Assembly: GCA_024256285.1 (NCBI GenBank)
Contig: JACGUG010000006.1
Span: 1-50,587 of the forward strand
Origin: an archaeon
Lineage (GTDB): Archaea; Thermoproteota; Nitrososphaeria; Nitrososphaerales; JACAEJ01
Direction: 5' to 3'
Length of the DNA stretch: 50,587 nucleotides
How positions within the stretch are numbered: position 1 is the stretch's first letter; the number at the start of each line of letters is the position of its first letter. The position numbers and the translations under genes are program-made. Shown here piece by piece: positions 45,677 through 46,726 of the stretch. The notes below the pieces were generated by a model that made no database searches, had not been told where the DNA came from, and saw nothing but the letters and a program-made list of their open reading frames with translations.

Positions 45677-45928
45677 TTATGGCACTTCTACAACGATCAT
45701 CGTGAGAGTAGACCTTACTTTATCTAGGCGTCGGATCTTCCAAGTTACCGTCTCCTTTACATTCTCCATAGAGTCGGCTTCTATCTTGGCTATGATGTCA
45801 TAGACGCCATAGACTATATAAACCTCTTTTACATTCTCAATCTTCTTAAGCTCTCCCACTAATTCTTCCTCTGCTCCAAGGTCGGCATTTATCAACACGA
45901 ACGCCAAAGGCATGGTGCATCTCATCAC
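45677..45928 (-). CDS. Single Lrp/AsnC ligand-binding (RAM) domain protein
   Basis: AFVLINADLGAEEELVGELKKIENVKEVYIVYGVYDIIAKIEADSMENVKETVTWKIRRLDKVRSTLTMIVVE. Confidence 0.92.
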   Translation of the reverse strand: MMRCTMPLAFVLINADLGAEEELVGELKKIENVKEVYIVYGVYDIIAKIEADSMENVKETVTWKIRRLDKVRSTLTMIVVEVP

Positions 45929-45985
45929 GTTCTAATTAATAAATTTATCATTAAATGGTTCAAGTTATCAGTACCAACAGAAGCA

Positions 45986-46064
45986 GGTTCTGTCAAGATA
46001 CAGGCTCATAATTCTTGGTGTAAAGTTTACAACATGACGGATGAGCCTACAACTTGACAGAACC
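45986..46064. mobile_element. 79-bp palindromic MITE-like element with 8-bp target site duplication
   Basis: Perfect 12-bp TIRs GGTTCTGTCAAG / CTTGACAGAACC; second internal inverted pair AGGCTCAT/ATGAGCCT; flanked by perfect direct repeats CAGAAGCA (45978-45985 and 46065-46072). Confidence 0.88.
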
Positions 46065-46072
46065 CAGAAGCA

Positions 46073-46090
46073 CAATATTTAAATAAGATA
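46073..46090 (+). promoter_or_regulatory. Candidate TATA box of the grpE-dnaK-dnaJ operon
   Basis: CAATATTTAAATAAGATA immediately after the right target duplication and about 50-65 bp upstream of grpE. Confidence 0.55.
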
Positions 46091-46138: not shown

Positions 46139-46726
46139 GTGTGGAGGCTCAATGAAATGATAGGAGAACCTGTGGCAGAAGAGGAGCGAGCTAAAGAAAC
46201 CGAACCAACCGATGAATCGATCGATGCATGCAAAGCAGTGAGTAAGCTAGATGAACTGAGAAAGGCTTTGGAAGAAGAGAGGAGTAAGACTGAAGATTAT
46301 CTGAACCGTTTAAGGTATCTTCAGGCCGATTTTGACAATTATAAGAAGAGGGTGGATAGGGATATGCTCGAATTAGTTAAGTATGGAAACGAGCGATTGA
46401 TAGTTAAATTGTTAGATACCGTCGACGATCTTGAGAGGGCTGTTATATCTTGTAGGGAAGCAAAGGACAAAGAGGCATTGTTAAAGGGGGTTGAAATCGT
46501 CTTAAAGGAGCTGAAGGAGACTCTTAGAAAAGAAGGGTTAGAAGAGATAGATGCTGTTGGAGATACCTTCGACCCAAATTTACATGACGCTGTAGATAAG
46601 ATCGAGACCAATGACTACCCTACCAATACGATCGTAGAAGAGATCAGAAAAGGTTATCTTTTAAATGGAAAGTTAATAAGACCGAGTATGGTCAAAGTTG
46701 CTCTTAATCCACTTAATAAGGAGTGA
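46139..46726 (+). CDS. grpE: GrpE nucleotide exchange factor (start possibly 46157)
   Basis: [74 protein letters not shown]. Confidence 0.95.

Follow-up and report, generated by a model that had tools for sequence, protein, structure and literature searches.

The archaeal IS6 members that PMC6807381 lists have transposases about 211-231 amino acids long. An account of the family mentions just one IS6 element that carries a passenger gene, and it also records two IS6-family MITEs in ISfinder, of 227 and 336 bp (PMC7986276), and MITEs of IS6-type elements are thus already known. A survey of Thaumarchaeota mobile elements counts IS families (PMC6563490), and a term search of its main text gave no mention of SWIM, MITE or cargo. 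Here, we examine a 79-bp palindrome found in a stretch of 50,587 nucleotides (the window) from an ammonia-oxidiser-type archaeon, and compare its ends with those of transposons in the same archaeal order. The finding is ordinary in kind, a MITE, and an earlier note on this DNA was mostly correct about it; the transposon group to which its ends lead makes it more interesting than a typical MITE.

Results

A 79-bp MITE inserted recently and precisely upstream of grpE

The features of the locus are collected in Table 1. The inverted repeats of the element are identical at 12 of 12 positions, its flanking octamers at 8 of 8, and 31 of 39 positions agree when its left half is compared with the right half read as reverse complement; repeats, duplication and palindrome at 45978-46072 are exactly as quoted in the earlier note, as is the half-to-half identity, which was recomputed. 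When the window was scanned for 12-bp inverted repeats with a span of up to 500 bp and a required 8-bp flanking duplication, this element was the single match, and 40 Markov-simulated windows contained none. It has no useful coding capacity, also as claimed. Folding of the single-stranded DNA gave -22.9 kcal/mol, compared with -6 kcal/mol for shuffles (z = -8.6), and the RNA folds into a long hairpin (z = -8.1 against shuffles). An Rfam search with the element returned no family, the one weak plant-miRNA match lying far below threshold and attributable to chance; plasmid records searched with 95 bp (element plus duplications) gave no match, and viral contigs did not contain the exact 19-bp end. 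Among 85,462 species genomes this end occurs in two, both recorded as Thaumarchaeota or Nitrosopumilales; judged by these records and by its gene content, the host probably belongs to the Thaumarchaeota (Nitrososphaeria).

Table 1. Features of the locus (positions in the window) and complete transposase-bearing elements of the group
Feature	Position or length	Strand	Target duplication	Basis or remark
Left copy of 8-bp target duplication	45978..45985	.	CAGAAGCA	identical to 46065-46072
79-bp non-autonomous element (MITE)	45986..46064	+		12-bp inverted repeats, absent from G001, ends as in C84 element
Left outer box GGTTCTGTCAAGATACAGG with pentamer CTCAT	45986..46009	+		PWM score 20.9 of 32
Central near-palindrome TGTAAAGTTTACA, half inner box from both ends	46019..46031	.		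canonical 14-bp gap
Right outer box GGTTCTGTCAAGTTGTAGG with pentamer CTCAT	46041..46064	-		PWM score 31.5 of 32
Right copy of target duplication, adjoining grpE TATA-like box	46065..46072	.	CAGAAGCA	duplication; G002 comparison
TATA-like element CAATATTTAAATAAG of grpE-dnaK-dnaJ, intact	46073..46087	+		conserved in G001 and G002; function inferred
grpE, likely start ATG 46157 behind GGAGG	46157..46726	+		PF01025, 1e-46
L126	3,079 bp		GAGATTCG	IS6-like transposase inside
L119	2,359 bp		GGATTGAA	IS6-like transposase inside
L122	3,270 bp		CTAAAACA	IS6-like transposase inside
L166	2,648 bp		ATAATACG	IS6-like transposase inside; CTCAT class
L167	2,733 bp		ATAAAACA	IS6-like transposase inside; CTCAT class
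L177	2,691 bp		CGTTCGGA	IS6-like transposase inside

Comparison with relatives, a check that the note had proposed, revealed an empty site in the congener G001, which is about 94% identical here (about 94% in the upstream flank and 93% in the downstream flank). Query positions 1-309 and 389-2942 match G001, and the overlap between the two matches is exactly the 8-bp target, with no base lost. The aligned G001 sequence reads ...TATCAA-CATAAGCA-CAATATTTAAATAA..., with a single copy of the octamer (CATAAGCA). The element is missing from a second congener, G002, as well, and there CAGAAGCA immediately precedes the same TATA-like box. Because the site is empty in G001 and the element is absent from G002, the insertion is recent and precise; it is later than the split from G001, and it replaced no DNA. 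The earlier statement that regulatory DNA had been replaced does not hold, since the G001 comparison shows a doubled octamer and no loss, and the conserved TATA-like box is still intact. The element is short and non-coding, has terminal inverted repeats and a target duplication facing an empty site, and has relatives with the same ends, one (C84) in the same genome and many in the order. It is a MITE, a reading that the precise empty site bears out.

The genes downstream of the element code for GrpE, DnaK and DnaJ, and on its other side is the gene of an Lrp/AsnC ligand-binding protein, divergent from grpE (all by Pfam). The MITE sits between two promoters, one of which drives heat-shock chaperone genes, and its right octamer copy adjoins the TATA-like box of the chaperone operon, where the note had placed it. 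This copy leaves the promoter-proximal sequence as it was before, and the upstream DNA has been shifted away by 87 bp. A scan limited to terminators and bacterial-type promoters detected nothing resembling a terminator and no excess of such promoter sites. A regulatory effect on the chaperone genes is possible and, because the grpE TATA-like box is intact, unproven; no evidence was found for the influence on heat-shock control that had been suggested, and the insertion would not be expected to have a strong promoter effect. The Lrp/AsnC ligand-binding protein, at 45677-45928, is of the stand-alone type, and two further similar stretches are present in the same genome (C49, C111).

Because the palindrome lies right next to the grpE TATA-like box, on its upstream side, and folds strongly, it might instead be a mere MITE lookalike that serves the chaperone operon as a regulatory hairpin, an attenuator or a heat-shock operator. 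We regard this as extremely improbable, given that the palindrome is not conserved at the locus, being absent from G001 and G002 despite otherwise conserved flanks, and that the same ends occur on an unrelated contig. Its position upstream of the expected transcription start makes an attenuator unlikely, and the precise empty site refutes a regulatory hairpin as an ancestral feature.

A second element in the host genome carries the same ends

The 79-bp form is single-copy in the host assembly, but such ends are found at one more place, C84:27369-28803 (1,435 bp; L006:3370-4804). The C84 element has GGTTCTGTCAAGTTGTAGG at one end and GGTTCTGTCAGGTTGTAGG at the other, is flanked by the 8-bp duplication TTTTATTT, and shares the end GGTTCTGTCARGTTGTAGG with the MITE, whose right 43 bp are 91% identical to the right end of the C84 element. 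Its gene encodes a fusion of an N6/N4 DNA methyltransferase with an Mrr-type endonuclease domain, in a frame broken by one in-frame TGA just before a GYPTQKP stretch, and no transposase was found inside it. Its pentamers (described below) differ between left and right, GACAT versus CTCAT. The 1.4-kb body was not found in relatives, and no empty site could be demonstrated there, the left flank not being conserved.

Two related genomes, G004 and G005, contain a solo end similar to the left end of the MITE (88% identity over 34 bp in G005). This solo left end, GGTTCTGTCAAGATATAGGTTCAT, lies just after a triosephosphate-isomerase-like gene (L012:1505 in G004, L013:1537 in G005), and the DNA beyond the tip is different, as if flanking deletions or rearrangements began there.

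Matching ends bound IS6-like transposases across the order

In a loose pattern scan of the order, ends were far more numerous than matches to the reversed control; several of its single-ended matches look like chance and were left unused. With a strict two-box pattern, 48 matches were obtained in 39 of the order's 401 genomes, versus 0 for the reversed control, and the pattern was rarer outside the order (5 genomes in the phylum sample). Transposases with the IS240/IS6-type DDE domain PF13610 are present in 16 of 20 genomes carrying such ends, and L119, L122, L126, L166, L167 and L177 are complete elements with two such ends, each enclosing an IS6-like transposase and flanked by perfect 8-bp duplications (Table 1). 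Autonomous elements of the CTCAT class include L166, L167 and L172, the last without a clean duplication. Elements without a transposase include two of 471 bp and 738 bp (L176, L173), both with perfect 8-bp duplications, and TnpB-only elements with an 8/8 (L045, L046, L054) or 7/8 (L047) duplication. The transposon group is widespread in these archaea and typical of this archaeal order.

IS1341-like elements consist of TnpB only. Genes for TnpB (RNA-guided nuclease family), with no TnpA, were seen within DDE-type inverted repeats in L044, L045, L046, L047, L048 and L054, mostly with 8-bp duplications; the TnpB copy of L048 also matches LAGLIDADG, and there the duplication is absent. A candidate cargo element, L049, with helicase and luciferase-like genes between GGTGCTGTC repeats, was dropped because its repeat is unusually long and no target duplication flanks it.

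Some elements are arranged in arrays. At L115:1643-10949 (G239), three complete elements with SWIM-containing, IS6-like transposases and the start of a fourth follow one another. The three complete ones have their transposase genes pointing the same way, and one and the same octamer, TGTTTCGA, separates all of the elements. Neighbouring elements in L116, L119, L177 and L178 meet at comparable 8-bp junctions, and such arrays suggest repeated insertion exactly beside an existing end. In two genera (L167:4138, L171:3461), an element ends a few bases before the apparent start of a radA-type recombinase gene, as judged by eye.

Twelve aligned transposases share a SWIM motif (C.C...CKH) and a C..C...C..C ribbon, and residues D352, D411, E451 and R458 are invariant among them, the R seven residues after the E. 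The match to PF13610 is above cut-off, with the K/R seven residues after E that is typical of the IS240/IS6-type DDE domain, and the GG tip, short inverted repeats with CTGT and 8-bp duplication also agree with IS6/IS26. The NCBIfam IS6 model gave 122.5, 118.1 and 106.8 bits against a cut-off of 125, and because these scores are just under the cut-off, the transposases are best labelled IS6-like, judging from their sequences, and not textbook IS6. The proposal of IS6-type mobilisation in the earlier note therefore stands in part: matching ends with 8-bp duplications do bound IS240/IS6-type DDE transposases, but these carry an extra SWIM finger and zinc ribbon and fall below the NCBI cut-off. 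The Pfam SWIM model exceeded its cut-off in one of the transposases scanned, and a transposase profile compared with solved structures gave no match at E <= 0.01.

Duplications of 8 bp are not unique to IS6, and the zinc ribbon seen here is matched by IS1/IS1595 zinc models as well, so that another DDE family making 8-bp duplications (IS1595, ISL3, ISAs1 and others) might have moved the MITE. IS1595 was rejected as the source, since its domain PF12762, the one domain of these rival families that was searched for, was matched in only 2 of the 21 genomes searched, the host not being one of them; PF13610, in contrast, is found in 16 of 20 genomes and is located inside the ends. We consider mobilisation by another family very unlikely.

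Full-text searches of open papers for SWIM transposases in archaea, with ISfinder and subscription journals outside their scope, found nothing. That the open papers searched contain no description of a group with these ends and transposases may hint at novelty.

Each end has two boxes with matched pentamers

A pentamer follows each of the two boxes of an end, the outer box CTGTnAAnTnnnnGG and the inner box TGTnAAnnnTCGG, and the motif in both positions is TGTnAAnT...GG. The 48 two-box matches had been chosen without regard to pentamers. Outer and inner pentamers agree at 3.85 of 5 positions versus 2.36 expected, a value reached in 0 of 20,000 shuffles, although the shuffles ignore the common descent of ends, which inflates the permutation statistics to some degree; among 36 distinct pairs, agreement is still 3.69 against 2.21. 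The base n within TGTnAA agrees between boxes in 71% of cases versus 37% by chance, and the five matches outside the order show pentamer agreement at 3 or 4 positions. Boxes are separated by gaps of 12-14 or 20-24 only, with nothing between these ranges, though the pattern allowed 11-29, and these two classes are about 10 bp, or one helical turn, apart. Gap class is concordant at both ends in 15 of 15 complete elements (53 of 200,000 shuffles were as good). The two-box plan is common and not universal, because L045, L046 and L048 have good outer boxes and no clear inner box. Since the pentamers match and the spacing steps by about one helical turn, the boxes may be two putative binding sites for one transposase, which would read the outer and inner copies on the same face of the DNA, with a recognition pentamer that drifts jointly in both.

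The MITE read as two transposon ends on a shared core

The length of the MITE, 79, equals 19+14+13+14+19. Both of its ends carry the outer box with CTCAT, and a gap of 14 from either end leads to the same central TGTAAAGTTTACA, the first half of an inner box; the half with GG and pentamer is missing from both inner boxes. A possible reading of the MITE is that two ends (19+14) have a single palindromic core (13) in common, about the shortest form conceivable, in which the outer boxes are intact and the half inner boxes would overlap on the shared central palindrome. Very probably, the two ends of an IS6-like transposon typical of the order gave rise to the MITE, and it was inserted recently into the spacer between the Lrp-like gene and grpE-dnaK-dnaJ by a transposase supplied in trans, with duplication of 8 bp. 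The autonomous relatives code for a predicted DDE transposase in which a SWIM zinc finger at the N terminus and a CxxC...CxxC zinc ribbon accompany a catalytic core of the IS6/IS240 type.

The host assembly (G000; 95% complete, 118 contigs) has no match to PF13610, not even a fragment, nor to PF12762. Within the family, PF13610 is found in G004 only, and related autonomous elements were found only in other genera; transposons with matching ends exist elsewhere in the order, and the PF13610 and PF12762 searches found no autonomous parent in the host assembly. Because its own assembly is without a PF13610 transposase, mobilisation was probably in trans, or is over by now. Either the transposase gene is missing from the assembly, or the source disappeared after the insertion took place. 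Fragmented, incomplete assemblies often lose insertion sequences, and an IS6-like copy in the host may have escaped this one as a collapsed repeat or within the missing 5%, with the MITE still active. The fragmented state of the genome and an insertion postdating the G001 split favor such a copy, but not even a fragment of it was matched, and five of the six other family members have no PF13610; we see it as a serious possibility with somewhat less than an even chance.

Discussion

What began as an isolated palindrome is a recent insertion, proven by an empty site and tied to a group of transposons whose ends and transposases are unusual. We propose, tentatively and with the balance slightly against us, that this is an undescribed archaeal group, in which SWIM-finger, IS6-like transposases would read two helically phased boxes per end, the variable pentamers would form a specificity code common to both boxes, and elements lacking a transposase, as small as 79-bp MITEs or as large as restriction-modification or TnpB cassettes, would be mobilised in trans. 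The matched pentamers are a directly testable candidate recognition code for a zinc-finger transposase, and the transposase-less methyltransferase-nuclease and TnpB cassettes suggest a way in which such genes could move among these archaea without a mobility enzyme of their own.

The group shares with IS6/IS26 (PMC7986276, PMC6807381) a GG tip with CTGT and CAA motifs, 8-bp duplications, and the IS240-type DDE core with R seven residues after E. However, archaeal members such as ISC774 and ISH14 have transposases of 211-231 amino acids, whereas those described here span about 370-400 amino acids over the conserved part and include the SWIM finger and zinc ribbon; IS6/IS26 elements are about 700-780 bp, whereas most complete elements measured here are 2.3-4.5 kb with extra genes; and the two-box ends set the group apart. 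A clostridial IS6 clade, clade h (PMC7986276), likewise has an N-terminal zinc-binding extension before the HTH-DDE part, described with CxxC fingers, in contrast to the SWIM motif CxCx(n)CKH followed by a CxxC...CxxC ribbon seen here. Like the IS6 MITEs of ISfinder, for which 8-bp duplications are expected, our element combines both IS ends with no gene, but it is 79 bp long and its inner motifs overlap on one palindrome. Finally, IS1341-like elements and Fanzor-type passengers (PMC3627910) also have TnpB without a TnpA of their own, whereas the TnpB genes of this group lie inside DDE-type inverted repeats with 8-bp duplications (L045, L046 and L054; 7 of 8 in L047).
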